Virus record (IMG/VR): IMGVR_UViG_3300042691_041718
Location: 1-64,000 of that record
Strand: one strand, 5' to 3'
Source of the DNA: a virus
Length of the DNA stretch: 64,000 nucleotides
Part shown: piece after piece, positions 9,410 through 63,871 of the stretch
Layout: each line of letters begins with the position of its first letter
Numbering within the stretch: the first letter of the stretch is position 1
Notes under the pieces: model-generated
Database searches by the model: none
Seen by the model: only the letters and a program-made list of their open reading frames with translations
What the model was told of the DNA's origin: nothing
Position numbers and translations under genes: made by a program

Positions 9410-10375
9410 ATGAAGTATTTGAAAAATATTGAAAATTTTAAAGAGAGTTTAAGAAATAATGTTAGATTGATAGAAAATGTTAACTATCACAGAACTAATG
9501 TTAAAAATCTAGGTGAAGTTATTTTACCAGATCCAGAGTTTGGAGATTTTAAATTAAGTGTTATGCCATTTGAAAATACAGGAGGTTGGGTTTCTTTACC
9601 CGAAGGATTTAAAATATGGGAGGAAGCTTTTAATGAAGTAATTAAAAATATACCTCTACAAGAAGGCGCGAATACACACTATGTTACAATTGATACTAAA
9701 TTCTTCACAACTGATGAGTTTCTTAGAAGAGAAGGAGTTCATATTGATGGTAATTTTTGTGTTGATCCTAACTTCAAAAAATTAAACGAGACAAAAGTTG
9801 ATGATGTTTTAAGTGATGATTTCTTCGATGATGTTGAAGATTACGAGGATGAATTTAAAGCTTCTTGGGGTGGTGCTGAACCAAAGCCAAGTTGGGGTGG
9901 TGCTGAACCAAAGCCAAGTTGGGGTGGTGCTAGGTACGATGATGATTTTAAAGCTTCTTGGGGTGGTGCTGAACCACAACCAAGTTGGGGAGGTGCTCGT
10001 ATAAAAGAGTATCAATATGAAGCTAAGTCTGATAACTCTCATGTTAAAATGGATTGGGTATTACCGTATAAAGATGTTATTATTCCAATTGCTGATTATG
10101 TGTCTGAAAGTAAAGGAGGTATTCTAACTGTATCAACTGAAGTTGGGTGTCAGGCTTGGAGTGGTGAGTTCTATGGTGAGATTTTAGGAGAAGGTTCATT
10201 TGAAAAAATGCAAGAACAATTGACCGATGATAGAAAAGTTGTATTTGAAAAGAATCAATTGTATTTTATGTCAAGTAATACACCACATGAAACTCTTTTG
10301 ATTAGTAAAGGTAAACGTAGAACATTTATGAGAATTACATTAAACCACAATTATGAAAATAAAAATATAAAGTAA
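9410..10375 (+). CDS. Tagged protein with dioxygenase-like residues and SWGGA repeats
   Basis: 321 aa. The N-terminal tag is MKYLKNIENFKE. A possible 2-oxoglutarate/Fe(II) dioxygenase core is suggested by H111-x-D113 (GVHIDGN), a distal H293 (TPHE) and R308 (FMRITL), in the spacing and order of that fold. Residues 152-196 insert five SWGGA units between the first two metal ligands and the third. If active it may hydroxylate a host or virion component. The start is the second nearby ATG, chosen because it gives the shared tag. Confidence 0.6.
   Translation: MKYLKNIENFKESLRNNVRLIENVNYHRTNVKNLGEVILPDPEFGDFKLSVMPFENTGGWVSLPEGFKIWEEAFNEVIKNIPLQEGANTHYVTIDTKFFTTDEFLRREGVHIDGNFCVDPNFKKLNETKVDDVLSDDFFDDVEDYEDEFKASWGGAEPKPSWGGAEPKPSWGGARYDDDFKASWGGAEPQPSWGGARIKEYQYEAKSDNSHVKMDWVLPYKDVIIPIADYVSESKGGILTVSTEVGCQAWSGEFYGEILGEGSFEKMQEQLTDDRKVVFEKNQLYFMSSNTPHETLLISKGKRRTFMRITLNHNYENKNIK
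9860..10000 (+). repeat. Coding tandem repeat SWGGAEPKP
   Basis: Five SWGGA units at a 9-residue period, broken once by RYDDDFKA. The near-identical DNA copies suggest recent expansion by slippage or recombination. Confidence 0.9.
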
Positions 10376-11001
10376 TGAAATACATAAAGAGTTATAACGA
10401 AAATAAAGTTCATTCTTATGATTCAATGGATACAGAGGATCTTGAAGAGTTATTACATTGGTCAAGAATTGAATATAACGAATTGGGTGATAAAATTAGA
10501 GATATAAATGCTGTTCTAACAAAAAGAAAAGAAGAGGGTGAAGAATCTCATTCTAAGTCATTACCGGTTAGTATATTTGATTTTAATAAAGAACAATGTG
10601 ATTGGATATTTGAACACGGTCATGGAACAACGAGTAAAAAATATAATATCTCAAATAAGTATTTTGAACAACTTAAAGGTTTTTTTACATCTGGATTTAA
10701 TCCAGATACAAACCAATTTGCTTTTAAATTAAGTAAATTCTATTTCGATAATACTGATTTAGATTTAATCATAAAAAGTATGAAATTTTTAGGTGATAAC
10801 TTAAAAAGAGTTAATTATACAATAAATGGTGAACATAAAGATATTGTTCAGTTTGGTGTTCAATATGAACATTTAGAAGATTATGATCATAAGGTTAATT
10901 ATGTTAGTGAGAATGAATTATATCTCGTTCAATATAGAACTAAAAAGTTTGATAGTATCAAATCTCTAATAGATTATATTATATCAATAGATAATGAATA
11001 A
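10375..11001 (+). CDS. Tagged protein, unknown body (208 aa)
   Basis: Start overlaps the previous stop by one base (TAATG). Tag MKYIKSYNE, then an acidic coiled-coil-like segment (DTEDLEELLHWSRIEYNELG) and an alpha/beta body of unknown family. Ends at a strong terminator. Confidence 0.75.
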   Translation: MKYIKSYNENKVHSYDSMDTEDLEELLHWSRIEYNELGDKIRDINAVLTKRKEEGEESHSKSLPVSIFDFNKEQCDWIFEHGHGTTSKKYNISNKYFEQLKGFFTSGFNPDTNQFAFKLSKFYFDNTDLDLIIKSMKFLGDNLKRVNYTINGEHKDIVQFGVQYEHLEDYDHKVNYVSENELYLVQYRTKKFDSIKSLIDYIISIDNE

Positions 11002-11028
11002 AAAAAACCAGTCATTGACTGGTTTTTT
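11002..11028. terminator. Bidirectional terminator
   Basis: AAACCAGTC-ATT-GACTGGTTTTTT hairpin between convergent genes. Confidence 0.8.
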
Positions 11029-11030
11029 GT

Positions 11031-15769: not shown

Positions 15770-15781
15770 GTGGTTTTTTTT
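15754..15781. terminator. Bidirectional terminator
   Basis: Palindrome with arm AAAACCACTCAA between convergent genes, flanked by a T-run on the plus side. Confidence 0.8.
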
Positions 15782-16086
15782 TATTTTAAGTGTTTTTTGA
15801 TTTCACTTTTAATTTTTCCTAATTGGTCGTATTTGAATTCTTCGGCTTTCTCACCTACTTTCTTAACACCAACATAATCTTTACGGAACATTACTTGAAC
15901 TTTAACATCTTCTAAGTTAACTTCTAAATCTGTACCAACAGTTTTAACTTTAGCGTCTTTCATATTTTTCAAGAAGTTCTCAATAGTTTCTCTGAATTTT
16001 TCAACTTTAACATCAGAATCAGATGATTTAGATGCTTTCATTGTTTTACCTTCGTTGAACATATCCCAAGTTTTGATATTTTTCAT
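15781..16086 (-). CDS. Tagged protein (101 aa)
   Basis: Tag MKNIKTWDMFNE then G, with Glu14 as the predicted cleavage residue. The remainder is Lys-rich with helix then beta strands (VKTVGTDLEVNLEDVKVQVMF); no family recognised. Confidence 0.75.
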   Translation of the reverse strand: MKNIKTWDMFNEGKTMKASKSSDSDVKVEKFRETIENFLKNMKDAKVKTVGTDLEVNLEDVKVQVMFRKDYVGVKKVGEKAEEFKYDQLGKIKSEIKKHLK

Positions 16087-16130: not shown

Positions 16131-16493
16131 ATGAAAAAACTTAAATTATTTGAGAGTTTTAACTTTGAATCCGAATTATCGGACTTAGTAAACTCTATAC
16201 CCGATTCTGATATTCCATCTCAAACAAATATCATAACTAAAATTGGAGATAAAATTATTTATACCGAAGGTTGGTGTGATAGATGTTTTTCAAACTATGA
16301 TGTTTATGATAGAGATGAAATGGTACAAATGGCTAAAGAACTTGGTGAAAAGAGATTAAAAGATATTCCAAGATTACCACAATATAAAATTAGGTTTGAA
16401 GGATATGAATTAGAAGATGTTAAGTTCTATGATTTACCGGATAACTCATATAATTATGCACTGTCGGTTGGTATTTATAGTCGTAAAAATTAA
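16131..16493 (+). CDS. Tagged protein (120 aa)
   Basis: N-terminus MKKLKLFESFNFE, with two Phe-x-Glu/Phe-Glu sites. Contains WCDRCF, a possible metal or redox CxxC. First gene of the 16.1-18.9 kb tagged cluster. Confidence 0.75.
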   Translation: MKKLKLFESFNFESELSDLVNSIPDSDIPSQTNIITKIGDKIIYTEGWCDRCFSNYDVYDRDEMVQMAKELGEKRLKDIPRLPQYKIRFEGYELEDVKFYDLPDNSYNYALSVGIYSRKN

Positions 16494-16797: not shown

Positions 16798-17265
16798 GTG
16801 AAAAGGATAAAAAGTTTTAAGTTGTTTGAATCAACAGGTAGTAAAATGACGGCAAAAGATAGAGTTGTTGTTCTATCTGAGGTTAGAGAGGATATAGAAG
16901 GTATACTTTATGAGTTAGAAGATCATTTAGTTGATTGTAAAGTAAATATTCAATCTATTTATTTAAAAAATGAGGATAGATTTGGTCGTTCTTGTGATGA
17001 TTTTAGTTCAACCTTTCATGGTGATGATGATGGAAATGGTTTAATGCTTATGGTTACTATGGATGAAGTTGAACAAGATAAAAATAAAGATTTATTAGAA
17101 AGGTTTCTTCGTTTATTAAAAGAACATTTAGATTATGTGTGTATTGGTAATAGAATAGGAATGTCTAGTAATAGAGTTCGTGTTGCGTACACAATTGATT
17201 TGAGAGGTTATATGAATAAATTGATGGACAATCTTGAAGAAAATAAAAAAGTAAATAAAATATGA
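16798..17265 (+). CDS. Tagged protein, GTG start (155 aa)
   Basis: Starts at GTG; the following residues KRIKSFKLFES equal those of the next gene, and the two 36-nt starts are nearly identical, which fixes the start. The body is alpha/beta (VLSEVREDIEGILYELEDHL...) with family unknown. The stop overlaps the next ATG. Confidence 0.75.
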   Translation: MKRIKSFKLFESTGSKMTAKDRVVVLSEVREDIEGILYELEDHLVDCKVNIQSIYLKNEDRFGRSCDDFSSTFHGDDDGNGLMLMVTMDEVEQDKNKDLLERFLRLLKEHLDYVCIGNRIGMSSNRVRVAYTIDLRGYMNKLMDNLEENKKVNKI

Positions 17266-17629: not shown

Positions 17630-18274
17630 ATGAAATATTTGAAAAGATTTAATGAGGCTGTAATTCAACCATATGATTTCACGGAAGCTCTTGAAAAAGT
17701 TAGATCAATGAGTAACATAACATTAGATAACTTAAAAGAGATATTCAATGATATGAATGTTGAGTTTGTTGATGTTGAATACTTTAAATCTAAACTACAA
17801 ACAAAAAAGGAAATCGAGTTGGTTCCGGTTGATATGCCTCCATTAATGGGTGGTATTCGATGGGGAGCTCATAATGTTTATACTAATAAAATGTATATCT
17901 GTATAGATGAGAATGAGTTTATAAAGTCTATTAATAGTCCATTAAAGAATAGGTTATTAGACTTTTTGGAAGAAGTATTAAGACACGAATCTGTACATAA
18001 ACAACAAGCTCAAAGAAGACCAGATGTAACTATAAGAAACTTAGAAAGATCACCAGTGGATCATAAGAAATATTTTAGTTCAACCGATGAAGTTATGGCT
18101 TATGCTGACTCATTTATTGTTCAATGTAGAAAAGTGGGAATGAGTGATGATGATATTTTAGATGTTTTGAGAGGTGGTAAAAAAGTATCTTGGATTCAAA
18201 ATGTTTATTCTTCTATGGATTTAGAAACTCAAAAGAGATTTAAAAAATATGTATATGAATACATTAAAAAATAA
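17630..18274 (+). CDS. Tagged putative zinc metallopeptidase
   Basis: 214 aa. Tag MKYLKRFNE then A. Zincin-type HESVH at 119-123 in the helix FLEEVLRHESVHKQQAQ, with a later TDEVMAYA that could supply the third ligand Glu. If processed and packaged it would be a protease delivered with the genome, or it could act in capsid maturation. Family beyond HExxH not recognised. Confidence 0.6.
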   Translation: MKYLKRFNEAVIQPYDFTEALEKVRSMSNITLDNLKEIFNDMNVEFVDVEYFKSKLQTKKEIELVPVDMPPLMGGIRWGAHNVYTNKMYICIDENEFIKSINSPLKNRLLDFLEEVLRHESVHKQQAQRRPDVTIRNLERSPVDHKKYFSSTDEVMAYADSFIVQCRKVGMSDDDILDVLRGGKKVSWIQNVYSSMDLETQKRFKKYVYEYIKK

Positions 18275-18284: not shown

Positions 18285-18515
18285 ATGAAATACTTAAATA
18301 AATATAATGAAAATAATAGTCAGATGAAACAATTTGTTTTAACGACTACAAGTGAAAGTTCTGATCACTACATCTATTTTATTGAGCACCCACAAATGCC
18401 TACAAGAGAAGAGTTAAATAAGTTTCTAGTTGAACAAGGTAGTGATGTTTCTGATGGTGAATCTTATGAAGATATTGATATGTGTGTTGAGATAAATAAT
18501 TTCAAGAGAATTTAA
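18285..18515 (+). CDS. Tagged protein (76 aa)
   Basis: Start chosen at MKYLNKYNE, which gives the shared tag; an upstream ATG at 18249 overlaps the preceding gene. Acidic body (FVLTTTSESSDHYIYFIEHP), family unknown. Confidence 0.7.
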   Translation: MKYLNKYNENNSQMKQFVLTTTSESSDHYIYFIEHPQMPTREELNKFLVEQGSDVSDGESYEDIDMCVEINNFKRI

Positions 18516-18530: not shown

Positions 18531-18854
18531 ATGAAATATTTAAAAACGTTTGAAGGTTATAATGATAAGAGTTTAGCTGAAGAAATTGCTGAAGATATTC
18601 TACCAAAACTAGAAGAAATTAAAAAGGAAAAAGGTAAGTTCACAGTAGGTATGTTTGATAATTACATGGAAGAAAGAAAAGGTGATATGAAACTAACCGA
18701 TGAAGTTATGTCTGAATTGGTAAATATGGGTTTTGATTTTGATTCGGATGACGATGATGAAGATTATTATGATGAAGATGAAGACGATGATCAAGATGGA
18801 CCACCTCCAGGATTTGAAGGTTATCCTGGCCCAGGTTATTATAGTTTAAACTAA
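18531..18854 (+). CDS. Tagged acidic protein with Pro/Gly tail (107 aa)
   Basis: Tag MKYLKTFE then G. The middle is helical. Then a run of Asp/Glu (DSDDDDEDYYDEDEDDDQD) is followed by a PPPGFEGYPGPGYY tail. Such acid tracts occur in DNA-mimic and histone-like-binding proteins, but no specific function can be claimed. Confidence 0.72.
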   Translation: MKYLKTFEGYNDKSLAEEIAEDILPKLEEIKKEKGKFTVGMFDNYMEERKGDMKLTDEVMSELVNMGFDFDSDDDDEDYYDEDEDDDQDGPPPGFEGYPGPGYYSLN

Positions 18855-26740: not shown

Positions 26741-26888
26741 TGTATATTTTATTAATTTTATTTCTTCTACTCATTGTTACTTTTGGAAAAAGTCTAAATA
26801 GTTCATTCATAATTTCTTTATCAATAGACTTAGCTAATTCTTGAGAAAGTAACTTCGATAACTCATCACTGGGATTAAACTGTTTCAT
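26727..26888 (-). CDS. Hypothetical protein at operon end (53 aa)
   Basis: Start chosen at MKQFNPSDELSKLL, whose ATG lies within the last codons of the glycosyltransferase upstream (overlap 14 nt). Helical, basic C-terminus, family unknown. A longer reading from 26984 is less likely. Confidence 0.55.
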   Translation of the reverse strand: MKQFNPSDELSKLLSQELAKSIDKEIMNELFRLFPKVTMSRRNKINKIYKKGD

Positions 26889-27558
26889 ATAATTCTCCTG
26901 GATATGGATTTTGGTAATGATCAACATCTGATGTATGAGCATTATAGTATTTTGATTCTGGTAATTGACAAACCCACATTTCACACATCATTCTCCATTT
27001 CAGATAATCATTATTAGGCATCCAAGTGATTGGATTACATAAATTTTTAATATGTGAAGATTTACTCCACCAAAAATTACCAGAATAATGTTTAGGGGCT
27101 TTACCATATCCCCAATACATAGGATGAAATTTGATATCTTCTGGATTACCTCTTAAATTAACACCAGTACAATCATTCTCTTTTAACTCTTCTAATCTAT
27201 CTTCCCATTTATTTATACTAAAATAAGATAAGTAATTAGTCCAATCCGTTATAAAAGGATGATTTCTACTTACTCCTTTTGTGTGTAAATAAAGAACATT
27301 GAAATCTTCGTCTTGTGAATGTTTCCAAATTAGATCTAAAGTTGGAAACTCATTATATGAAGTATCTTTATATTTATTCCAAATTTTATATTTAGGATCA
27401 TCTAAATTCACCTTTAATAAGTTTATATCACCATTAATGACTAAATTGATTACATCACAATTTTCGTATAAACTACTATCTTTAATTCTATTTAATAGGT
27501 TTGTCAAAACTTCATTAACAGAACCCATCACAGCAACATTTATATAAACTCTATTCAT
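26875..27558 (-). CDS. Glycosyltransferase-like protein (227 aa)
   Basis: Contains NVLYLHTKGVS, W-x-NYLSYFSINKW and YSGNFWWSKSSHIKNL, a pattern shared by a group of putative polysaccharide glycosyltransferases. Last enzyme of the minus-strand glycan operon; overlaps its upstream neighbour by 8 nt. Donor and acceptor unknown. Confidence 0.7.
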   Translation of the reverse strand: MNRVYINVAVMGSVNEVLTNLLNRIKDSSLYENCDVINLVINGDINLLKVNLDDPKYKIWNKYKDTSYNEFPTLDLIWKHSQDEDFNVLYLHTKGVSRNHPFITDWTNYLSYFSINKWEDRLEELKENDCTGVNLRGNPEDIKFHPMYWGYGKAPKHYSGNFWWSKSSHIKNLCNPITWMPNNDYLKWRMMCEMWVCQLPESKYYNAHTSDVDHYQNPYPGELYETV

Positions 27559-28312
27559 TTTCTAATATTAAATTTTCAAGTATATAACTTTCAACAGAAT
27601 TGTATCTATCAATATTAGTCATACCATGTACATCTTCATTACTAGACCAGTTTCTTGTATACCACATATGAATTCCTATATCTGGTGAATCTTTATCTAA
27701 TCTAGGATTTGTCGATTTAAATCTCTCATCAAAGTGTGGATATAAATAATCAAATTTACAACCTAACTTTTTCATAGTCCATAAAAATGCGTAGTAAGGC
27801 TCTTGTTCATAATTAAAATTAGAACCACCTTGAATTTCGTGTTGATATTTAAAATCTTTTTTATAATCTTCTTCAAACTTAATTCCATAGTTATTAAGCC
27901 AACCATTAACAGGATGAAACCCAAATTGTATATTTGAGAAATTAACTTTTCTCAAAAATTCAATTTTACCCATAAGTAAAAAAGCATTAATAGCCACTGG
28001 ATTAGCACCTCTAAATTGAGAATATCCATCTGATACACCAAGTATATCAACACTTTCAAGTTTCTGAACAGCTTTTAAAAACTCATCCTTTGATGTTAAA
28101 AAGAAATCTTCATCAATATGAACAAAGTATTTACAATCAGTTTTTTTAACTTCTTCAATCCAATAAAACCAAGAATTGGGCCATTCCTTTCTACCATCAA
28201 CTACTATATGTTGACTTTCAGGAAAATTACTCTTTAAAATTTTTGATTGATAATTCAAAAATTTAGTATATAGTGTTGTTGTTACAAAACAAATATCTTT
28301 TTCGTTAATCAT
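27551..28312 (-). CDS. GT-A-type glycosyltransferase (253 aa)
   Basis: Nucleotide-sugar-type DED metal motif in YFVHIDEDFFL, preceded by a Rossmann start (DICFVTTTLY...HIVVDGR). Predicted to transfer a sugar in the phage glycan pathway; overlaps the next gene by 4 nt. Confidence 0.7.
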   Translation of the reverse strand: MINEKDICFVTTTLYTKFLNYQSKILKSNFPESQHIVVDGRKEWPNSWFYWIEEVKKTDCKYFVHIDEDFFLTSKDEFLKAVQKLESVDILGVSDGYSQFRGANPVAINAFLLMGKIEFLRKVNFSNIQFGFHPVNGWLNNYGIKFEEDYKKDFKYQHEIQGGSNFNYEQEPYYAFLWTMKKLGCKFDYLYPHFDERFKSTNPRLDKDSPDIGIHMWYTRNWSSNEDVHGMTNIDRYNSVESYILENLILENE

Positions 28313-28920
28313 AATTTTAATTTATATTTTTCGTTAAATACATAGAACCAAATTCTCTCCATTATCCACGGCATTTTATTAACACCACCACCTTTATGTG
28401 GTGGAATCACTGTATCATTTATATCATCTCTATCAAACTCACTTAGTAGGTTAATATAAAATTGCTTAGGTCTCATTTTTATAAAATTTCTACTAACTAA
28501 AAATTGAGCTCCTACTATAAAATATAATTCATTTGGACTATTTTCAAAATATTTATCAAATATAATTTCTTTTATATTCAAACCAGGGTGTACAGGTCCG
28601 CCATCCAAGTTACATTTTAAAAGATGTGATAAACAAAGAAAGTCTGATCCGTTATAAGAGTCAATAGTCTCAATATTTTGACTTAAATTACCCTTTACTC
28701 CATCATATGGATTACCTTGTAGGAAACAAACATAATCAGATAAATTATCATAATTATTAACTATATGATATAGATAGGTATGAGCTTCTCTACCAAAATT
28801 TGGTAAATTTATATAACCATTATCATCACCACTTTTGTCATAAATAAAAAGTTTAGATCTCTTAAATAGTTTTGTCCAACTTATATCTTCTTTATATTTA
28901 GCTATTACAACTTCGACCAT
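28309..28920 (-). CDS. DUF3431-like putative glycosyltransferase (203 aa)
   Basis: Pattern of the family: VVIAKYKEDISW, LFIYDKSG, LPNFGREAHTYLYHI then YVCFLQGNP. Usually encoded among polysaccharide genes. 16-nt overlap with glf. Confidence 0.75.
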   Translation of the reverse strand: MVEVVIAKYKEDISWTKLFKRSKLFIYDKSGDDNGYINLPNFGREAHTYLYHIVNNYDNLSDYVCFLQGNPYDGVKGNLSQNIETIDSYNGSDFLCLSHLLKCNLDGGPVHPGLNIKEIIFDKYFENSPNELYFIVGAQFLVSRNFIKMRPKQFYINLLSEFDRDDINDTVIPPHKGGGVNKMPWIMERIWFYVFNEKYKLKL

Positions 28921-30023
28921 ATCTCATCTTTTGATTTTTTTAAAGCTTCTGCTATTACTTGGTGCATGTCATAATATTTATAATTTGCTAATCTACCACC
29001 AAAGATATATTTATCTAAAGCTTTACTTCTTTCTTTATAGAGATTATATATAGAATTGTTTAAATAATCATTAACAGGGTAGTAAGCTTCATTTTCACCA
29101 TTATACTTTTGTGGATACTCCTTGGTTATTATAGTGTATTTAGTATCATCTAATAAGTCAAAGTGTTTATGTTCTATTATACGGGTATATGATACATTCT
29201 CGCTAGTGTAATTAACACCAGCAACACCTTGATAATTTGAGATAGGTAATATTTCTTCATCAAATCTTAAACTTCTATATTCTAATTTACCAAATTCATA
29301 ATCAAAAAACTCATCAATCTTTCCAGTGTAAACAATTTTATTTGATATAGATTCATAATATTCACGTTTAGATAAAAAATCTTCACCATAAATTACTTCT
29401 ATATCACCAACTATATTTTCTATCATCTTAGTATATCCACCAATTGGTATACCTTGATATTTATCTCTATAATAGTTATTATCATATTTAAATCGAATTG
29501 GTATTCTTTTAATTATAGAAGTTGGTAATTCAGAAGGATCTTTACCCCATTGTTTTTTTGTATATTCTTTGATTAGTTTTTCATAAATATCTTTACCAAC
29601 CATAGAAAGAGCAAACTCTTCTAAATTTCTTGGATTATCAATATTTATTCTCTGAGAATCTATTTTAGATTTAACCTCTTCAGGTGTAAAAATATTCCAC
29701 ATTTTACCAAATGTATTCATGTTGAATGGTAGATTATAAATCTCACCATTATAGTTTGCTAAAGGTTCATATCTAAAATGATTAAACTTAGCATACTTAT
29801 TAACATATTCCCAAACTTTATCATCCGAAGTATGAAATATATGAGGTCCATATTTATGAACATTGATACCATGTATATTCTCAGTATAAAGGTTACCGGC
29901 AATATGTTTTCTCTTTTCAATAATTAAACAACTTTTACCAGAGTTTTTCATTTCTCTAGCAAAAACTGAGCCAAATAATCCCGATCCAACTATTAAATAA
30001 TCATACTTCATATCTTTATCCAA
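28905..30023 (-). CDS. glf: UDP-galactopyranose mutase
   Basis: Flavoenzyme converting UDP-galactopyranose to UDP-galactofuranose. 372 aa with the FAD-binding GSGLFGSVFA, then KRKHIAGNLYTE and HKYGPHIFHT, which are hallmark Glf motifs, and the C-terminal FGGRLANYKYYDMHQVI. A phage-encoded Glf points to galactofuranose in a glycan built by the neighbouring transferases. Confidence 0.95.
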   Translation of the reverse strand: MDKDMKYDYLIVGSGLFGSVFAREMKNSGKSCLIIEKRKHIAGNLYTENIHGINVHKYGPHIFHTSDDKVWEYVNKYAKFNHFRYEPLANYNGEIYNLPFNMNTFGKMWNIFTPEEVKSKIDSQRINIDNPRNLEEFALSMVGKDIYEKLIKEYTKKQWGKDPSELPTSIIKRIPIRFKYDNNYYRDKYQGIPIGGYTKMIENIVGDIEVIYGEDFLSKREYYESISNKIVYTGKIDEFFDYEFGKLEYRSLRFDEEILPISNYQGVAGVNYTSENVSYTRIIEHKHFDLLDDTKYTIITKEYPQKYNGENEAYYPVNDYLNNSIYNLYKERSKALDKYIFGGRLANYKYYDMHQVIAEALKKSKDEIWSKL

Positions 30024-30793
30024 CTTTCTGGTATAATATCAGTTGTGTTAATATTAGCCATATCACCAAACCATTTCTCAGGAGCAACTACTTTTTTATT
30101 CATATTATTATTTAACCAAGCCCCCCACCAACTGAATGAACTATTAGCAATAATATTATTCTTACAAAAAGACATCAAATATAAATCTTGAATGTCAGTA
30201 AAACCTTCCATAAATATCATATTATCAAAATGTAAATTTTCTTTACACCATTTTATATCATCAGAAAAAACAAAGATGTAATCATATTCACCAATTGTCT
30301 CAACTGCTTTATTATAATACTCAATAGATTGTACTGGATGATAACCATTTGAGGTAACATAATCAGTTCTTCTTATATGAAGTGAAATATTATTTTTATC
30401 AATCAATGGAGTTTTTAATAGTTTACTCAACATCTCATCACTTGGTTTAAAATCTTCTCTAATCAAAGATTCTATTTCTTTAAAATATTTTTCACTTTGC
30501 CAATATCCATCTAGATAATAATTTACATTCACTGGCTTTGGCACCTCTTTAAAAATAAAATTATCTTCTATTTTATAGATAGGACCAACTAATGATACTC
30601 TTAAATCTGTATTTGTTGAAATGTTTGTAAATCTATTTAATAAAAACTCTCTTTGAGTTGTACCGGGTAATCTATAATTATAGAAATTAGTATCTAATCT
30701 CAACTCGGTATCATGTTTATGAGATAAATATCTACCATAAGCCCATTGAAACATTTGATTTCCTAAACCACCTTGTATTTTACTTATAATCAT
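30008..30793 (-). CDS. GT11 alpha-1,2-fucosyltransferase-like enzyme, copy 1
   Basis: 261 aa from MIISKIQGGLGNQMFQW. That start was chosen because the longer reading overlaps the upstream gene and lacks the family opening. Motif HIRRTDY binds the GDP moiety, and IANSSFSWWGAWL is also typical. Transfers fucose or a related GDP-sugar. Overlaps glf by 16 nt. Confidence 0.88.
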   Translation of the reverse strand: MIISKIQGGLGNQMFQWAYGRYLSHKHDTELRLDTNFYNYRLPGTTQREFLLNRFTNISTNTDLRVSLVGPIYKIEDNFIFKEVPKPVNVNYYLDGYWQSEKYFKEIESLIREDFKPSDEMLSKLLKTPLIDKNNISLHIRRTDYVTSNGYHPVQSIEYYNKAVETIGEYDYIFVFSDDIKWCKENLHFDNMIFMEGFTDIQDLYLMSFCKNNIIANSSFSWWGAWLNNNMNKKVVAPEKWFGDMANINTTDIIPESWIKI

Positions 30794-30800
30794 AATCTTT

Positions 30801-31613
30801 TTATTTTTTATCAATGTATGTGAATTTATCACTTTTAATTTTAGGAGGATCAAATTCACCACCAACATTATAATTAAACCATCTTTCAGGAGCAACAGTA
30901 ATTATATTATCATCATTTAACCAACTAGCCCACCAAGAAAAAGAAGAATTTGGTATAACCGTATATTTAGATTGATAAAGTAAGCAAAAATCAATTTCCA
31001 TCTCATTACTAATAACATCAAAATCTGGGAAAAATTTCTTAGCCTCCTCAACATCATCCGTTATTACTAAAAACTTTAAATCATTTTTTACTTCTCTAAC
31101 TTTATCAATAGCATCTTGATAGTAAGTAATAGGTAAGTACCAATGATGAATATCTTTATAATCAGCTCCTCTGAAGTGTATATAACAATATTCATCAATT
31201 GGATATTTTTGAATCAAATCAATTGTTTTATCTATATTTTCTTTTCTAATAGGAATCCAAGATTTTACTAAATCTTTTTTATCTATAAAATAGTTTTCGG
31301 ATTGAAAAAAACCATTTAAAAAAGTATTATCTGATACATTATCAAGAGATCCTTCTTCTTGTTTGTGTAGTAAATCACCATCGATTTCACCAAAGTCTAT
31401 ATCAAATAGTTTATCACCAATCCAATAATGTGGATTTGATGGATTTGACATCTCATAGTATCCAAACTTTCTACAATAATTTGCTAAATTATTACCTTCT
31501 TCTTTACTTTTTGGTACAAAAAATTTAATACCACTGTTATATGATGCTAATCTAGTAGCTAAATATTGAAATATTTGATTACCTAATCTACCATTAAAAT
31601 AAACTGAAATCAT
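30801..31613 (-). CDS. GT11-like fucosyltransferase, copy 2
   Basis: 270 aa. NGRLGNQIFQYLATRLA opening, HFRGADY in place of HxRRxDY, and VIPNSSFSWWASWL. The change at the GDP-binding motif suggests a diverged donor preference. Tandem paralogue of the gene just downstream. Confidence 0.85.
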   Translation of the reverse strand: MISVYFNGRLGNQIFQYLATRLASYNSGIKFFVPKSKEEGNNLANYCRKFGYYEMSNPSNPHYWIGDKLFDIDFGEIDGDLLHKQEEGSLDNVSDNTFLNGFFQSENYFIDKKDLVKSWIPIRKENIDKTIDLIQKYPIDEYCYIHFRGADYKDIHHWYLPITYYQDAIDKVREVKNDLKFLVITDDVEEAKKFFPDFDVISNEMEIDFCLLYQSKYTVIPNSSFSWWASWLNDDNIITVAPERWFNYNVGGEFDPPKIKSDKFTYIDKK

Positions 31614-31616
31614 CTT

Positions 31617-32459
31617 TTAATTATTTTTTTGTAATATTTCTATAATAGAGTTAAAACATCCATCATAGTCAAAATATTTTTTATAAATCTCTCTACCTCT
31701 CTCAACATATCTATTTATATCCTCAGGTGTTTTAGAAGATAATATTTCATCTAATTTTGAAATATCATTAACATGAATTTGTACTCCAATCTCATCAAAA
31801 TTAAATTCAGTATTAAAAGGAACTAGTGGGTTATCATAAATATAGACTGGTATAGATTCGTTTTGAAGAGCTTCACATATTCTAAAGGATGTTTCACCAT
31901 ATCCTCTTGGACAAAGAGAAAAAATACTTCTCGACATAACATCTCTAAATTGTTCATAACCAATTGGTTGTGAAATAAAGTACTTAGAATCACCTCCTAA
32001 TGAATTTCTCATTGCGACTCTAACTGGGTGTGTATCACTACCAATAAAAGAAGCAAATATATCTTTATCAGGATTTATAAAAATATTTGGTGGTGGTAAA
32101 CAATTCAACGGAATTGGATAACATTTATCGGAATATTTACCATGACCACCCATAGCAAATATTTTAATATCTAAATCACCAAAGTTATTTAAAATATTAT
32201 CATCGTATTGAACAATTGTATAATATTTTTTATCTTTATCTAGATTATCAATAAAATTTTGAATATCGGATAAATCTCCATTACCATAGTTTCTATTAAC
32301 ATACAAACTTGTCCAAAAAATTGGAAGGTATATTCTCTCAGTTTCTATCTGGTTTTGTAAATATTTACTATAAAAAAACTCTTCAAATATTTGTGAGTTA
32401 AAAGGTGGATAGTGAACATTTATAACAACTCTTAATGAGTCAGGTGTTTGTATCATCAT
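31617..32459 (-). CDS. Exostosin-like (GT47) glycosyltransferase
   Basis: 280 aa. FASFIGSDTHPVR and FSLCPRGYGETSFRICEALQ followed by ESIPVYIYD are the characteristic exostosin-domain segments. Ends 3 nt upstream of the GT11 gene and overlaps the next upstream gene. Confidence 0.83.
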   Translation of the reverse strand: MMIQTPDSLRVVINVHYPPFNSQIFEEFFYSKYLQNQIETERIYLPIFWTSLYVNRNYGNGDLSDIQNFIDNLDKDKKYYTIVQYDDNILNNFGDLDIKIFAMGGHGKYSDKCYPIPLNCLPPPNIFINPDKDIFASFIGSDTHPVRVAMRNSLGGDSKYFISQPIGYEQFRDVMSRSIFSLCPRGYGETSFRICEALQNESIPVYIYDNPLVPFNTEFNFDEIGVQIHVNDISKLDEILSSKTPEDINRYVERGREIYKKYFDYDGCFNSIIEILQKNN

Positions 32460-33196: not shown

Positions 33197-33197
33197 T

Positions 33198-40032: not shown

Positions 40033-40517
40033 TTTCTCATTATAGAGAATTTATCTTCTGGTTTAACTATATTAAGTTTTTCACAAGCCATCATAAAAGA
40101 GTCCATTATAGAATAAACATCTTCCATTTCTGTTACTTCATAATCTCTAATCTCCCAATTATCTTGATCGTCATCTTCAACATCTTTCAATATTAAAGTA
40201 ATAACATAAGTATCTTCTATAAAAGCTAATCCAGCTTGAGCATAAAAAGTCATACCTTGTACTGGTTTATATGAAGTTGCATAAAAAGCTACAAATCTAT
40301 CTCCATCATGATCGACTAACTGTGACTGAAACTTAGTTAGTATTGGATATTGAATTAAAACATTCTCAACTAATTTATCTGTATTCTCATCACCAGAACT
40401 TAAAGGTATTTTTGTAAAATTTTTAGAAATCTCTTTATCCATTTCTCCCTTTAAATAAGGTATTTCAAATCTTGATTTTAAATCTTCATCATCAAAAAAC
40501 TCAAAAAACTTTTTCAT
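40029..40517 (-). CDS. Hypothetical protein (162 aa)
   Basis: Begins MKKFFEFFDDEDLKSRF, only loosely like the N-terminal tag. Alpha/beta body (FVAFYATSYKPVQGMTFYAQ). Its ATG overlaps the stop of the intein-bearing gene by one base. Confidence 0.7.
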   Translation of the reverse strand: MKKFFEFFDDEDLKSRFEIPYLKGEMDKEISKNFTKIPLSSGDENTDKLVENVLIQYPILTKFQSQLVDHDGDRFVAFYATSYKPVQGMTFYAQAGLAFIEDTYVITLILKDVEDDDQDNWEIRDYEVTEMEDVYSIMDSFMMACEKLNIVKPEDKFSIMRN

Positions 40518-42433
40518 TATATTTCTTTATTTTTTTCATCTAAATAATCTAAAAGATTATTGATTAAATTATCGGCTCTATCATAAAGTTCTTTATTCTT
40601 TAACTTATTAGCTACATAATAATTAATATTTTTATTTGTATAAAACGTTTCTATTAAATTATCAGGAACCCAAACTCCAGAATATTTAAGTTGCATTACG
40701 AATGGCATTACGACATTTTTGGCATTATTTGAAAAACCATCATCAAATACATCGGAATATGATTCTGGTAATTCTTTACCCTCATAATCATCAGCACCGT
40801 CATCACCATGTGCGTAAAATCCACCAACTTTACCTTCTAAATGATTTCTTAGAAGATTGTCATATTTACCAGACTTAGCGAACTTACCAGTAACTTCTGA
40901 TCTTTTAATATTATCAGAACCCATTAGTTTCTTGGCATCATCAATTGTAAGAGTTTGATTAACACTGACCAATCTATCAAAAAGAGTTTTAACTTGTGAT
41001 GATAAGGAGTGCCAGTGTATTGGAGAAAATACTAAAAAAGCATCAGCCTCTTGTAGTAATTCATAAACATTTAACTCTGAAAGTAAATCAGGTTCTTTCA
41101 TCCCTTTGAAATAACAACTACAAGGAAAGTGACAATTGTGAACTTCTATACCTTCACATATAAATTTATGTGATTTTGAAACAGATATATCATAAACATT
41201 TGATCTACCAATTTCTTCTATTTTTTCGACTTTACCATAATAGTCATAATTTTTAGATTTTCTATAAGAAATTTTTTTAAATTTATAATCCTTATTAAAT
41301 ATTCCTATTTTTTCCATAAAAATATTAGCATTAAGGCCACTTATAACTAACATAGATGCTCTTTTTATAAATTTATTAAACCTAAAAGTTTCTATATGAT
41401 CCAAATAGGTTATAGATGATTTTATACCAAATTTAGAAAGTAGCAATTGACAATCTCTTAAAGAATCTTTACTAACACTTGTTAGATTTATTTCATAATA
41501 ATCGTTTCCTCTATTATTTCTTTTAATAATTGATCCATCACTAGCAAACCAACCATTTAAAAAATTAGAAACTTGACTTTTTGATGAATTCATTATGGAT
41601 TCTGGAATTCTTCGATCATATATATTCTTGTTTTTTTCTTCAAATATAAGATTGTTGATAAATAAATTGGTTTCATTGTCATTAAATTTTATCCATTTAA
41701 CTTCGGTATTTTTTGATATAACTCCCTTCTCAGAAATTGAGATATTAAAATTATTAGATAGTTTTTCAATTAGAATTTCATCTCTTACATCATAACATAA
41801 TTTAAGTCTTTTATGATGAACCGCTCCATCTCCCCATAATAAGCCACATAAAAGATATTTATCTAAATTTGATTCATCTTCTTTAAATTCACCAGTAAAT
41901 TTAAATGGTATTCTATCACCGGTTTTTAGATTCTTAACATCGATCCATTCTTCAGTATATCCTTTTAGTTTTTTTTTATTATTATTTTTGTAAATAGGAT
42001 TTATTACTTTTATAGGATGATTATCAGTTAATTTTATTTTTCTTCCGTCGCTTGTTGTAACCTCATATATAATAGAATTATCACCGGTTTTCATAAAATT
42101 ATAAACGGTTCCGGTTGATAATTCATCTCCTATTAAGATATCTTCAATTTTTTTATATCCATATTTAGTCTCAACTCTCTCACCTTCTGCGATACAATGA
42201 AATCCGCCAGCAGTTGAAACACAACCCTTACAAGGTTGTATATTTGGTTTTTTAGATTTATTTACAGATAAATCAATAACTTTTATTTCTAAAAATGGAG
42301 ACCATTTTTCTATAACATACTCAATTACTTTGTGAGTTTTTGATTCCATATTAGGACAAGTATCAGGATCTCTAGGTGATCCTTGAAAAATCAATACTTT
42401 CCATTTTTTATCTCCGAGTTTTCTTATCTTCAT
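40517..42433 (-). CDS. Flavodoxin-fold NAD(P)H oxidoreductase containing an intein
   Basis: 638-aa precursor. N-extein 1-79 opens with a flavodoxin-like KVLIFQGSPR and ends PCKGCVSTAGGFH. The intein is 80-433. C-extein 434-638 starts CHFPCSCYFKG, continues with ADAFLVFSPIHWHSLSSQVKTLFDR, the FMN-binding pattern of NADPH-dependent FMN reductases, and later KVGGFYAHGDDG. Splicing gives a 284-aa enzyme with a Cys-rich strip (CKGC, CHFPCSC) at the junction. Reductase substrate unknown. Confidence 0.88.
   Translation of the reverse strand: MKIRKLGDKKWKVLIFQGSPRDPDTCPNMESKTHKVIEYVIEKWSPFLEIKVIDLSVNKSKKPNIQPCKGCVSTAGGFHCIAEGERVETKYGYKKIEDILIGDELSTGTVYNFMKTGDNSIIYEVTTSDGRKIKLTDNHPIKVINPIYKNNNKKKLKGYTEEWIDVKNLKTGDRIPFKFTGEFKEDESNLDKYLLCGLLWGDGAVHHKRLKLCYDVRDEILIEKLSNNFNISISEKGVISKNTEVKWIKFNDNETNLFINNLIFEEKNKNIYDRRIPESIMNSSKSQVSNFLNGWFASDGSIIKRNNRGNDYYEINLTSVSKDSLRDCQLLLSKFGIKSSITYLDHIETFRFNKFIKRASMLVISGLNANIFMEKIGIFNKDYKFKKISYRKSKNYDYYGKVEKIEEIGRSNVYDISVSKSHKFICEGIEVHNCHFPCSCYFKGMKEPDLLSELNVYELLQEADAFLVFSPIHWHSLSSQVKTLFDRLVSVNQTLTIDDAKKLMGSDNIKRSEVTGKFAKSGKYDNLLRNHLEGKVGGFYAHGDDGADDYEGKELPESYSDVFDDGFSNNAKNVVMPFVMQLKYSGVWVPDNLIETFYTNKNINYYVANKLKNKELYDRADNLINNLLDYLDEKNKEI
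41135..42196 (-). mobile_element. Intein with LAGLIDADG homing nuclease (354 aa)
   Basis: Starts with Cys (CIAEGERVETKYGYKKIEDI, block A). Block B is TDNHPIKV with the conserved His, and the end is VYDISVSKSHKFICEG then VHN followed by extein Cys. Two nuclease motifs, LLCGLLWGDGA and FLNGWFASDGS, carry the catalytic acids. All residues for splicing are present. Confidence 0.93.
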
Positions 42434-53891: not shown

Positions 53892-54377
53892 ATGTATAAT
53901 CAAAAATTATTTATGGGAAAGATAGAAAAATATAAAGACTTCGCAAGAAAGTTTCAACACAAGTGGAACCAAGACACTCCAACTGAAATAAATCTACCTA
54001 GTTATTTAGATGAAGAGGAAGAGAAAAAGAAGATTGAGATGGAACAAGAGTTAGAAAATGGAGAAGATGAAATAAGTGAAAGCTATTTAAACTCTAAAGA
54101 ACTAATTTTTACAGGAAAAAGAAATAGAAATTTACAAATAACAGTTGTATTAGATAGTTCAATGAGAATAGAATCAATTGACAATAAAGCTAATATTAGA
54201 TTTCCTTTCCATGTTGGTCAAAGAATAAATAGAAATATTGAGGTTTGGGCTTGTAATAACAACTTCTTATTAAACGGAGAAGATACTTGTCCAGAGAAAA
54301 AGATATTTGGTGTTAGAGCATCTGATGTACCACAAGGTCACGAGTGGAGAAAAATATACCCAGGTAAATTTAAATAA
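53892..54377 (+). CDS. Hypothetical protein (161 aa; start uncertain)
   Basis: Charged helix, then a beta domain (LQITVVLDSSMRIESIDN) and NIEVWACNNNFLLNGEDTCPEK. The true start may be MGKIEKYKDFARKF at 53913, slightly tag-like. The stop overlaps the first MKHLRKFNE gene. Confidence 0.7.
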   Translation: MYNQKLFMGKIEKYKDFARKFQHKWNQDTPTEINLPSYLDEEEEKKKIEMEQELENGEDEISESYLNSKELIFTGKRNRNLQITVVLDSSMRIESIDNKANIRFPFHVGQRINRNIEVWACNNNFLLNGEDTCPEKKIFGVRASDVPQGHEWRKIYPGKFK

Positions 54378-54769
54378 TGAAACACCTAAGAAAGTTTAAC
54401 GAAAGTATAAATGAGCATCTTGATATAGAATATATCAAACATTGTTTTAATGACTTATCAGATGATCCAGAATGTGATGTAGAATATGATACACATGAAG
54501 ATTATCTACGTGATAATCCAAACGATGAAATCACACTTAATGACGAATATGTTGATTTAACCATAGATATCCCTAGAATAACTAAGGGTGGAACTTTTGA
54601 AAGAATGATTGGTAATTCTGAAAGAATATCACATATTATTAAATCAATTGATATCTCAATCAAAAGATTAAAAGATGAATATCCTAATTATAATATTGAA
54701 ATAAATTACGAAGAGGATGATGATAGACCAAATGACTACTTCCAGATAAATATAAATAATAAAAAATGA
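54377..54769 (+). CDS. Tagged protein MKHLRKFNES (130 aa), paralogue 1
   Basis: After the tag comes EYIKHCFNDLSDD and, near the end, IKRLKDEYPNYNIEINYEED; the same blocks occur in the gene at 55149, so these two are true paralogues. Acidic, function unknown. Confidence 0.75.
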   Translation: MKHLRKFNESINEHLDIEYIKHCFNDLSDDPECDVEYDTHEDYLRDNPNDEITLNDEYVDLTIDIPRITKGGTFERMIGNSERISHIIKSIDISIKRLKDEYPNYNIEINYEEDDDRPNDYFQININNKK

Positions 54770-55152
54770 AACACCTAAGAAAATTTAATGAAAGTTTTGA
54801 AGATGAAACTAAATCATATCTAGAAACACTTTTTGCTGATATCTCAGAGAGTGGTTACTATAATGTTAATATTTTGATAGCAAAACCAATAAGAGTGGAA
54901 GGTGTTCAATGTGTTTATGTTGAAGTTAAATTGGAACCTGTTGAAGGTAAATTATGGAATAGATCACCATATGGAAATGCTGGTTTTTTAAAAGCGTCAA
55001 TTGAAAATGAGATGGAAATATTAAGAATTAAACAAGAAACACTTAATAGTATAAACGCCATAATTAAAGATATAGAAAGTGAAGGAAATGAAGTTAACTT
55101 CATTGTAAATAGAATTGGTGAGTTAAAAATAAATATTGAATATAAAGTATGA
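54766..55152 (+). CDS. Tagged protein MKHLRKFNES (128 aa)
   Basis: Same first ten residues as its neighbours but a different body (YNVNILIAKPIRVEGVQCVYVEVKL...). Overlaps both neighbours by 4 nt. Confidence 0.75.
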   Translation: MKHLRKFNESFEDETKSYLETLFADISESGYYNVNILIAKPIRVEGVQCVYVEVKLEPVEGKLWNRSPYGNAGFLKASIENEMEILRIKQETLNSINAIIKDIESEGNEVNFIVNRIGELKINIEYKV

Positions 55153-60336: not shown

Positions 60337-60678
60337 TTAACCAGTTGAATCTATAAATTTCATTTCTTTAGCTGTGATACCACTAGGTTTATCATGACTT
60401 TTGCTACGCGCTCTATGAGTATGAATAAAATACCCATCTTTATCAATACCCATATCATATCCATTTGGATATCCACCTTCTTTAATTTTCCTTTTTAATT
60501 CTGGGTGTAATTCTAGTCCAAAAACTTTACCTTTTTTAACACTTGTCACATATTTAACGAGTTCATAAGCAACTTCTTTTAATTCTTTTGGTAAACCGTG
60601 TAGGTTTTTAATAGATTTAATCTTATCTTCTTTATTAAAAGAAAATTGGAATTCCTCAAACAACTTTATTCTTTTCAT
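60337..60678 (-). CDS. Tagged protein MKRIKLFEE (113 aa)
   Basis: After the tag, a helical region and LHPELKRKIKEGGYPNGYDM...GYFIHTHRARSKS. His-rich HTHRARS end could be catalytic (nuclease or lyase) but no family is recognised. Confidence 0.7.
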   Translation of the reverse strand: MKRIKLFEEFQFSFNKEDKIKSIKNLHGLPKELKEVAYELVKYVTSVKKGKVFGLELHPELKRKIKEGGYPNGYDMGIDKDGYFIHTHRARSKSHDKPSGITAKEMKFIDSTG

Positions 60679-61677: not shown

Positions 61678-61679
61678 CT

Positions 61680-62339
61680 ATGGAGTTATTCTATTTTGAC
61701 ATAGAGTGTGTTGGATCATATAAAGATTATGAAACCTTTTGTTTAGAAGATGAGAGAGGTTCTAAACTATTTAGTGAGAAATATAAAAGAATGAGTTGGG
61801 ATCAAAAATACGACTCTGTTGATGATGCTTATATAAAGCAAAGTGGTATTATAACCACTTATGGTAAGATATGTTGTATATCATTTGGTTATGTTAGTGA
61901 ATCAGGTGAGAAACAAATAAGAAGTTTTTATGGCGAAAATGAGAAGGAAATTGTAAATAACTTTAATGAATTACTTAAAAAAGTAGAATTAAAAAATTTA
62001 AAATTATGTGGATATAGAATTTTATATTATGATTTAATTTTCATTTTACATAAACTTCATAAGTATGGTATTAAACCTGCTAATATTATTTACTTATATG
62101 ATAAAAAACCTTGGGATGCTAGAATAGTCGATATAGCAGATGATTGGAAACAAAAATTTGCCTGGGCTTTTTCTTTTGATGAAGTTTGTTATGAATTAGG
62201 TGTTAAGTCACCTAAAGAGAATATGAATGGTTCTGAAGTACATAAATACTATCATAAAGGTAAATTAGAAGATATAAAAAGATATTGTGAAATGGATGTT
62301 AGTTCATCTATTGATGTTGGTAACATTCTTTATAATTAA
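61680..62339 (+). CDS. DnaQ-like 3'-5' exonuclease (B-family type)
   Basis: 219 aa. Exo I FDIECVG, Exo III YCEMDVSS. The Exo II region reads LCGYRILYYDLIFIL, where relatives usually have GHNxxxFDxPF, so the Asp is kept but the Asn is replaced. Family relative of the predicted DNA polymerase B exonuclease 2. Proofreading or nuclease role in DNA metabolism. Confidence 0.75.
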   Translation: MELFYFDIECVGSYKDYETFCLEDERGSKLFSEKYKRMSWDQKYDSVDDAYIKQSGIITTYGKICCISFGYVSESGEKQIRSFYGENEKEIVNNFNELLKKVELKNLKLCGYRILYYDLIFILHKLHKYGIKPANIIYLYDKKPWDARIVDIADDWKQKFAWAFSFDEVCYELGVKSPKENMNGSEVHKYYHKGKLEDIKRYCEMDVSSSIDVGNILYN

Positions 62340-63871
62340 ATCTTATTTATAATTCTAATTGTTTTATCTATATTCTCGTTGAAAAATTTTAATTCATCAT
62401 CATTTGATGGTGTTGAATCAGTTAATATATCTTTTAATGTTTTTATTTGATCTAGATAACCAACTTCTTTAACAACATCTAAAATCATATTCATTCTTTT
62501 TCTTATAACAAAAAGATCATCTAAATCTTCTATTATATTAGGTTTTATCTTCTTTGTAACTAGTTCACCTAATTGGAATATTTTATTTAGGACTTCTTTT
62601 CCTAATTCACTATTCATTCCCTTAGTTAAACTATCGAATTTTGATTTTTTAGTATGTAGTCTCTGAATTATTTCAAAAATCAACTTAACTTTTAAATCAG
62701 TATCTAAATTTGTACTAATTTGATTAAAATTTATTAAAGTTAATTTAGCAGCCAAATCTCTAACGTTATCACTAGATTTATGATCTCCTATTTCATTTGA
62801 AATTCTATCTGTTTGTGATGAAAAATATTTAGTTACTTCAGTTTTAGAATCACCATTTAAAGTTGAGTACCATTTACGTAATTTATCCATATAAAAGTTA
62901 GGTCTTTCTTCTTCTTCTTCTATATTTTTATCTTCTTTAATTTTAATTAGTTTATCTAAATCTAAAGCTGAGTTTGATATATCAAACATAATCCATTTAT
63001 TGAAAAGTACCTTATCAAATAATGAGTTGAAATTATCAGTATTAGCCATTTTCAATATTCTATTATTAAAATTAGTCTTTCTAATTTCTTCATTTGAAAG
63101 TAATGCTGTTGCACCACTTCTCATTTCTTCTCTACTTGATTTAATATTCTTTCTATTTTTAGAAGTGTCTAATTTAGAAGTATTAAAAACGATAGCAAAT
63201 TGTGATTCACTTAAACTCTTTTTAGTAAATGCGTCATTTGAATCTATTTTTTTATTCCATAACTCTTCTCCATTATTTTCGGGTTTTAATGACCATATAG
63301 TCCAATCACTATCAACTAAACTCCAAGATCTATTACCCCAATCTGTCCAATCTTCATTATCTGGTTCTGAGCCTTCTAAATAACAATCTTCATCACTATA
63401 AATGGCATACATCCTTACTCGATCACCATTAGGTTCAATATAAAGTGTGGCACGTGTTTTAACATCATCATCAAATTCGTCAAAATTAATGAATATCTTA
63501 TCTAAGTGGTTTATCAATCCACTCCTAAAATCATCTCTTAATTCACTAAAATAGCTATATTCTTTGTCTTCTGTGTAACCAGTTCTGGATTTCAACGCTA
63601 CTCCATCAGTTAAAGATATATTTATCAAATTAGCATTGGTATCTAACCAAAACTTATAGATTTTATCATTACCTTCTACTTTATCAAAAGCTTTATTGAA
63701 TGTTAAATACTCAAAATATTCATCTTTTAGTTCTGAATATGGAAAATCAATTTCATCACAAATACTCTTAACTTTATTTAAGAAAAGTATTTTAGATTCC
63801 TTTGATAAATATCTTAATGTTTTAGATAATAATTGTGATTTAAATGCCTCGAATAACTTTATGTGTTTCAT
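62336..63871 (-). CDS. Largest tagged protein (511 aa)
   Basis: Tag MKHIKLFE then A. N-terminal alpha/beta part with WTDWGNRSWSLVDSDWTIW, a long helical C-terminal half (LAAKLTLINF..., IEDLDDLFVIRKRMNMILDVV). No catalytic motif recognised. T4 packages one large tagged protein (Alt) along with small ones; this might be a counterpart in size only. Confidence 0.72.
   Translation of the reverse strand: MKHIKLFEAFKSQLLSKTLRYLSKESKILFLNKVKSICDEIDFPYSELKDEYFEYLTFNKAFDKVEGNDKIYKFWLDTNANLINISLTDGVALKSRTGYTEDKEYSYFSELRDDFRSGLINHLDKIFINFDEFDDDVKTRATLYIEPNGDRVRMYAIYSDEDCYLEGSEPDNEDWTDWGNRSWSLVDSDWTIWSLKPENNGEELWNKKIDSNDAFTKKSLSESQFAIVFNTSKLDTSKNRKNIKSSREEMRSGATALLSNEEIRKTNFNNRILKMANTDNFNSLFDKVLFNKWIMFDISNSALDLDKLIKIKEDKNIEEEEERPNFYMDKLRKWYSTLNGDSKTEVTKYFSSQTDRISNEIGDHKSSDNVRDLAAKLTLINFNQISTNLDTDLKVKLIFEIIQRLHTKKSKFDSLTKGMNSELGKEVLNKIFQLGELVTKKIKPNIIEDLDDLFVIRKRMNMILDVVKEVGYLDQIKTLKDILTDSTPSNDDELKFFNENIDKTIRIINKI

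Follow-up and report, generated by a model that had tools for sequence, protein, structure and literature searches.

A short N-terminal tag resembling the T4 capsid targeting sequence on mostly unrelated proteins of a virus record and its huge-phage relatives

In phage T4, the internal proteins IPI, IPII and IPIII and the protein Alt carry a short N-terminal propeptide on unrelated, variable bodies. This capsid targeting sequence (CTS) has a cut site ending in x-E and is processed by gp21. IPI counters a restriction enzyme. The T-even internal proteins are described as highly diverse defence proteins with the conserved CTS alone in common (PMC3012670), and IPIII as indispensable on one E. coli strain and able to act from the cytoplasm when it lacks the CTS (PMC9391042). 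A tag of similar design begins sixteen genes in the window studied here, the first 64,000 bases (1-64000) of the 186,465-base virus record IMGVR_UViG_3300042691_041718 (called G000 below). The scale differs from T4: against three internal proteins and Alt there are 20-22 tagged genes in the 186 kb of G000 and 118-137 tagged among the 985 open reading frames (ORFs) of the relative LR745206. The tag types also differ (MKxLKxFNE/S, MKxIKLFE/A and MIKKYxxFIxE/A, often with F or Y at P3).

Sphingomonas (Sphingobacterium) phage PAU resembles this case in having a tag class MKT[LI]xxLYEAxLNEA on many bodies, a gp23-type capsid protein and a gp21-type protease, but its genome is 219 kb, its 19 tagged genes lie mostly beside the head genes, and its tag has a consensus of its own. 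The Dar proteins of phage P1 are likewise head-packaged anti-defence proteins, and the first 30 residues of DarB are enough to package a reporter (PMC9024508). However, a BLAST by the P1 authors gave no N-terminal consensus, and no family-wide tag is described there (PMC9024508). In phiKZ and SPN3US, too, a group of head proteins, the ejection proteins, is cleaved by a protease related to gp21 (PMC5694885), but several of their propeptides exceed 100 residues, in SPN3US gp45 alone has one that approaches the T4 CTS in length, and no short shared tag is described there. The 'N-terminal motif' of RaK2 was rejected as a parallel because it is a tail-spike motif. In the literature excerpts consulted, no description of tags of this sort was found for huge phages. 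The kind is known, being that of the T4 CTS. As far as this literature goes, three things are new: the scale (about a tenth of LR745206 ORFs), the fusion of the tag to a capsid arm, and an occurrence that takes in five huge phages as well as PAU.

The best reading is that the internal-protein strategy of T4 is at work here, on a scale some 30 times larger in LR745206: the tag would be a T4-like propeptide for targeting to the capsid (prohead), cut by a gp21-type protease, and the bodies would be delivered with the DNA. The probability of this reading is put at roughly 0.8. The tag would dock each protein into the scaffold core during head building, and the gp21-type prohead protease would then remove it after the Glu of an [I/L/F/Y]-x-E site followed by [S/A/N/G]. 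Mature bodies would stay with the DNA, enter the host with it and immediately target defence and host functions; such effector injection is suggested by the types of cargo and by the T4 precedent. Among the proposals of a preliminary description of the window, capsid targeting with a cut after Glu is the best supported, by the ranks of the T4 internal proteins, the clustering in PAU, the capsid-arm ORFs and the protease of the relatives.

Relatives were compared through the head-tail adaptor gene of the window (7623-8423, matching PHROG 211). Its product is 79% identical in LR745206 (634,780 bases), 75% in LR756502 (642,428), 42% in LR756504 (636,363), 40% in LR756501/3 (735,411), 31% in LR756500 (462,018) and 24% in the cultured phages PAU and pT24. 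G000 is probably under a third of a complete genome. The LR accessions are presumably the huge phage genomes of the study PMC7162821. In that study, all genomes above 634 kb belong to the Mahaphage clade, with predicted replication in Bacteroidetes (PMC7162821). The 25 bases 5' of the sixteen tagged starts in the window are A/T-rich, with no Shine-Dalgarno sequence visible by eye. Starts of this type are a trait of Bacteroidetes, so they suit a Bacteroidetes host.

A tag profile was built from 80 LR745206 N-termini chosen by regular expression and was scored on first-24-residue windows of crudely called ORFs; it replaced an earlier regular expression that had noisier controls. All sixteen genes of the preliminary description are present and begin as it said, 18285 being an internal ATG. 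They are given below with their lengths in amino acids (aa) and their scores in bits with this profile, trained on LR745206 only.

9410..10375, plus strand: 321 aa, tag MKYLKNIENFKE then S, 14.3 bits; body matches PHROG 8970, a family with no assigned function; homologue in LR756504, 60% identical
10375..11001, plus strand: 208 aa, MKYIKSYNE then N, 16.0 bits; tagged orthologue LR745206 456842, 44%
15781..16086, minus strand: 101 aa, tag MKNIKTWDMFNE then G, 10.6 bits; orthologue LR745206 549015 has 7.9 bits, slightly below the 8-bit threshold
16131..16493, plus strand: 120 aa, MKKLKLFE then S, 14.1 bits
16504..16794, plus strand: 96 aa, weak tag MKILKFEEFSINE then A, 6.7 bits, below threshold; body is the C-terminal domain of the longer tagged LR745206 451902 (72% identity over 87 aa)
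16798..17265, plus strand: 155 aa, GTG start, MKRIKSFKLFE then S, 13.8 bits
17262..17606, plus strand: 114 aa, MKRIKSFKLFE then S, 13.5 bits; tag identical to that of 16798, body different (no body match at E 1)
17630..18274, plus strand: 214 aa, MKYLKRFNE then A, 15.4 bits; HESVH (HExxH)
18285..18515, plus strand: 76 aa, MKYLNKYNE then N, 15.7 bits; internal ATG of a longer ORF opening at 18249
18531..18854, plus strand: 107 aa, MKYLKTFE then G, 15.1 bits; tagged orthologue LR745206 450900, 73% over 70 aa
19509..19679, plus strand: 56 aa, MIKKYIEFINE then G, 12.2 bits
54377..54769, plus strand: 130 aa, MKHLRKFNE then S, 18.7 bits; paralogue of 55149 (29% over 125 aa)
54766..55152, plus strand: 128 aa, MKHLRKFNE then S, 16.9 bits
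55149..55571, plus strand: 140 aa, MKHLRKFNE then N, 16.4 bits; tagged orthologue LR745206 455887, 37%
60337..60678, minus strand: 113 aa, MKRIKLFE then E, 8.2 bits
62336..63871, minus strand: 511 aa, MKHIKLFE then A, 17.7 bits; five-copy family with tagged paralogues in G000 at 64905, 66662, 81052 and 175989

The tag is statistically real. Fifteen of the sixteen window genes score 8.2-18.7 bits and fourteen reach 10, 16504 being the exception at 6.7. Searching the whole of G000 added seven genes at 8 bits or more beyond those of the preliminary description, namely 64905(-), 66662(-), 81052, 95764, 122048(-), 152939 and 175989(-), which brings the total to 22 of 247 ORFs. At 10 bits or more, G000 has 20 of 247 N-termini against 1 of 780 windows starting at an internal Met (Fisher p = 4e-12) and none of 1235 shuffles. 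For LR745206 (635 kb) the figures at this cut-off are 118/985 against 11/3188, 62 of the 118 being training sequences, and at 8 bits 137 of the 985 ORFs are tagged. A half-trained profile found 86 of 945 held-out LR745206 N-termini against 12 of 3188 decoys, and again 20 in G000. LR756500 has 34/723 against 4/1817 internal-Met windows, and LR756501 25/1094 against 3/3891 (66 against 12 at 8 bits). With the same profile and cut-off of 10 bits PAU gives 1/313 against 0/1243, T4 2/284 against 0/949, and pT24 1/321 against 2/1390, which is control level. Tag sets taken at 8 bits are suggested to include false positives, because some Pfam families in the LR756500/LR756501 tagged set are of the secretion-tail type.

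Since the regular expression had demanded a residue class after Glu, a second test was seeded by the first five residues only. A [hydrophobic]xE site was present in 23 of 28 seeded G000 N-termini against 55 of 219 others, and the next residue was S, A, N or G in 16/23 against 14/55. The same held in LR745206 (site 82/105 against 292/880; next residue 49/82 against 89/292), PAU (23/33 against 78/280; 18/23 against 18/78) and LR756500 (25/45 against 220/678; 14/25 against 45/220). The test was not significant in pT24 and T4. Each of the 20 G000 tags that reach 10 bits contains a [FYLIMVW]xE site, with S, A, N or G following in 18 (partly built into the profile) and L or I at P3 in 11. In public viral contigs, the exact pattern MK[HY][LF]KxFNE occurs in at least 112 stretches. 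Among the matches listed, 107 of 124 occurrences coincide with the first start codon that their ORF offers, and the residue after Glu, left free in the pattern, is S, A, N or G in 78 of 124. The 122 bodies behind these matches form 71 families.

The likeness to T4 extends to individual proteins. The profile, for which T4 was never in training, ranks IPIII, IPII and IPI 3rd, 4th and 7th among 284 T4 ORFs. A homing endonuclease comes first and gp61.1 second; ranks 5 and 6 go to other ORFs. The T4 comparison of the preliminary description fits IPII and IPIII (MKTYQEFIAEA) but breaks down for Alt, which is cut after ITE-6 and has 1.2 bits. T4 gp61.1 (MKTFKEFIKED..., minus strand, L141:18966-19130) scores 10.7 bits, above IPII and IPIII, and judging from its N-terminus may be an overlooked packaged protein.

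In PAU, the tag is linked to the head genes. A sister pattern of the MKT[LI]xxLYE type, written after ten of these genes had been inspected, matches 19 of 313 ORFs and none of 1243 internal-Met windows. Fourteen of the 19 lie within 99.5-122 kb beside the portal, protease, scaffolding and capsid genes, a region holding 40 of the 313 ORFs (p = 2e-10). Five PAU genes bear the note 'internal capsid protein', a depositor annotation whose basis is not given, and four of them (gp142, gp154, gp199 and gp270) are tagged (p = 6e-5).

Small ORFs of the relatives also join the tag to the N-terminal arm of the capsid protein (E-values without composition correction or masking). An 84-aa ORF of LR745206 (93266) has the tag MRYLKPYKKFIE followed by NADGSSTSGMGAVSSAQP, which resembles the mature N-arm of that genome's own capsid protein (E 4e-7). 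Another 84-aa ORF, LR756501 730457, has MKRVITFTEYLNE followed by SDGGG...NGMGNIVAP, again like its own capsid N-arm (E 4e-9). The arm occurs without a tag above threshold in LR745206 554784 (7.1 bits) and LR756500 265261 (0.8 bits). In G000, a 130-aa protein (121616-122008, minus strand) carries the capsid-protein propeptide at its N-terminus on a different body; its orthologue LR745206 291407 has the propeptide start plus a retained piece of the capsid body. In pT24, a 61-aa ORF (71192-71377, minus strand) reads MKKISIYLEEKISE then NEFASTPDGIDGMGSV, in which a possible site precedes a GMG stretch resembling the capsid arm, despite the lack of tag enrichment in that phage.

The gp21-type protease that the preliminary description pointed to is present in LR745206 and was found, together with a gp23-type capsid protein, by similarity in all six other relatives searched, but not in G000. 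In LR745206 it matches PF03420 with 20.1 bits (E 1e-4), under the 27-bit Pfam cut-off, and has matches in 529 phage records; among the 40 matches listed, several are named head maturation protease. It adjoins the gp23-type capsid protein (E 7e-26; E 0.001 to T4 gp23 chains), and its fusion partner is a scaffold that contains ten YSEY[LIV][AS]E[NH] units and is rich in LxE sites. The fusion lies at L017:48546-50000, running into L018, and is likewise seen in LR756502, LR756501 and LR756504; each YSEY[LIV]AEN-type unit holds a potential cut site, x-E then N. Capsid proteins of five huge phages have cut sites, read by eye, of INE/N, INE/N, MNE/N, IHE/N and LYE/N before a conserved GMG arm. According to published N-terminal sequencing, the mature PAU capsid protein comprises 520 of 585 residues (PMC5646251); a PDB search with this protein found no relative. 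In the window itself, a stand-alone 57-aa ORF (7173-7346, plus strand) between DnaJ and the head-tail adaptor resembles a prohead protease N-terminus (RNNGRIYP). It has a weak match to the Atu_ph04 head maturation protease (E 0.1), and a similar 60-aa ORF lies at L028:26479.

The tag is modular. The tagged proteins of G000 and LR745206 at 8 bits or more were clustered by their bodies (first 20 residues removed, BLAST 1e-4), and 159 proteins gave 140 families, 127 of them singletons. This was without masking; low-complexity masking gives 141 families and misses the pair 54377/55149. The bodies had been called mostly unrelated, which holds overall but not for these two paralogues or for 62336 with its five-paralogue family. 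The latter belongs to the largest body family (seven members, five in G000), in which tag columns L6, E8, F10 and S12 are invariant though the members are 24-32% identical to the first. Tagged genes are often neighbours: G000 has 9 adjacent tagged pairs where 1.9 would be expected, and 2000 shuffles never gave more than 8; LR745206 has 50, against an expectation of 19 and a shuffle maximum of 31. Among 107 reciprocal best pairs between the two genomes, both members are tagged in 8, one in 3 and neither in 96. Two untagged window genes have tagged counterparts in LR745206:

13..1236, minus strand: untagged RNA ligase of the RNA_lig_T4_1 type (PF09511, E=4.8e-20)
53892..54377, plus strand: ORF without tag (4.2 bits), just before the 54-kb tagged cluster; body tagged in LR745206 242588 (56% identity, residues 62-161 to 8-106)

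The LR745206 orthologue of the RNA ligase is 52% identical from residue 18 and starts with MKLFKYIEFINE then NSKNE. By this alignment, the pair would be a natural case of tag gain or loss. The short window protein 19509 aligns over residues 25-56 to residues 406-437 of tagged LR745206 448257, which has 2_5_RNA_ligase2 and RNase_T domains, and is probably a remnant of such a tagged 2H phosphoesterase/exonuclease protein.

The cargo was searched for known domains. Among 112 of the 113 tagged LR745206 proteins of at least 100 aa (the longest left out), Pfam at 1e-4 detected 17 families. These include methyltransferases, NIF phosphatase, NFACT-R, peptidase M15 and NUDIX, as well as 2H phosphoesterase, RNase T, winged helix and a weak Acb1; the tagged RNA ligase LR745206 470485 was scanned separately. 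The Acb1 score of LR745206 448257 is 23.1 bits, below the 27-bit cut-off; a tagged ORF of LR756502 reaches 28.4, but 2_5_RNA_ligase2 fits it better (44.6). In LR756500 and LR756501, 98 tagged proteins matched 32 Pfam families; a few of the proteins look falsely tagged. Among the matches listed (25 of the 32 families), leucine-rich repeats lead, and a helicase, a polynucleotide-kinase phosphatase and a methyltransferase are present.

For the sixteen window proteins, Pfam assigned no function. PHROGs gave none for 9410, 17630 and 62336, nor did a PDB search for 9410 and 17630, where the one weak hit of 17630 was regarded as random. The only enzyme hint is the HExxH of 17630, noted in the preliminary description, whose H/E/H residues are kept in the sole aligned homologue (LR745206 372795). 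The AlphaFold single-sequence model of this protein has a mean pLDDT of 69.8 (30 over residues 1-10) and no match among PDB folds at E 0.001. The model of the 62336 family has a pLDDT of 46.9. Dioxygenase-like residues had also been seen in 9410; neither Pfam nor PDB supports this.

Several observations weigh against prohead targeting with delivery. Pfam models found no portal, gp23-type capsid protein or S77/gp21-type protease in G000, and the LR745206 protease as query had no match there. This absence would be explained by G000 being probably under a third of the genome, and its head module probably lies elsewhere in that genome. pT24 encodes the protease yet its tags are not above control level, and the seed test was not significant in LR756501. 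P3 is F or Y in 9 of the 20 G000 tags, outside the T4 rule. In T4, ranks 1, 5 and 6 are not known packaged proteins, and Alt, which is packaged, escapes the profile (1.2 bits, 121st). PAU gp70, noted as 'internal capsid protein', has no tag; gp1 and gp10 ('internal capsid vertex protein') are also untagged, and counting them gives 4 of 7 (p = 4e-4). The PAU capsid site LME64-N65 would leave 521 residues, one off the mature length. The spacing from Glu to GMG in the capsid-arm ORFs differs from that of the capsid protein by 2 (93266) and 5 (730457), which makes the junction inexact. With just 17 Pfam families over the 112 LR745206 cargos, the effector role is mostly unassigned, and no virion, infection or proteomics data for these huge phages were found in the literature excerpts.

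The most durable alternative is that tagged proteins are scaffold or core parts of a very large head that are then degraded and lost, with no delivery to the host. The annotated PAU scaffolding protein gp152 carries the tag, the protease of the relatives is fused to an LxE-rich repeat scaffold, and most cargos have no known-domain match. Part of the tagged set may have only a scaffold role. However, some bodies are enzymes (RNA ligase, 2H phosphoesterase, methyltransferase, NUDIX), the bodies are highly varied, and the RNA ligase appears to gain or lose the tag. This suits accessory cargo over structure, and the alternative is considered unlikely for the set as a whole.

Much less probable is that the tag sends proteins to a phage structure other than the head, for example a phage nucleus, as raised in the preliminary description, or a replication compartment. 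By itself the tag does not reveal where it directs a protein, and several of the cargo enzymes could work in a replication compartment. The position of the PAU tag genes among portal, protease and capsid genes, the small ORFs joining tag and capsid N-arm, and the high scores of the T4 internal proteins nevertheless point to the head. Nucleus-forming jumbo phages have a tubulin-type spindle protein and a chimallin shell protein. The tubulin family (PF00091) was detected in none of six relatives, while it was detected in 13 of 14 control genomes; no chimallin search was made.

It is hardly credible that the shared N-termini reflect nothing more than composition or translation in AT-rich phages, for instance through K-rich starts: the window does have 27% GC and many MK starts, but no shuffled N-terminus reaches 10 bits, which contradicts this explanation, the public matches listed favour S, A, N or G after Glu and the first start codon, and pT24 stays at control level.

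Two further observations were made by eye in the window. An intein-like insertion lies at 40517-42433 (minus strand) within a flavodoxin/NADPH-reductase-like protein. A run of minus-strand genes at 26875-35331 resembles glycosyltransferases and sugar-modifying enzymes.

A broader proposal follows from the reading of the tag as a prohead targeting propeptide, and its chances are judged to be about even. Bacteroidetes megaphages would load more than 100 proteins per virion via one interchangeable address of 10-15 residues, and about a tenth of their genes would form an effector arsenal that acts before phage expression. The tag would then be a loading code that new genes acquire, much as they might a secretion signal, with one consensus per lineage. 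If true, the tag would allow a function-blind listing, from sequence alone, of what some of the largest known phages carry in their virions, and more than 100 mostly unassigned genes per genome would become candidate first-strike anti-defence proteins. The tag would also serve as a ready-made address by which proteins could be loaded into capsids of very large size, and would help to explain the use of the extra genes in huge phages.

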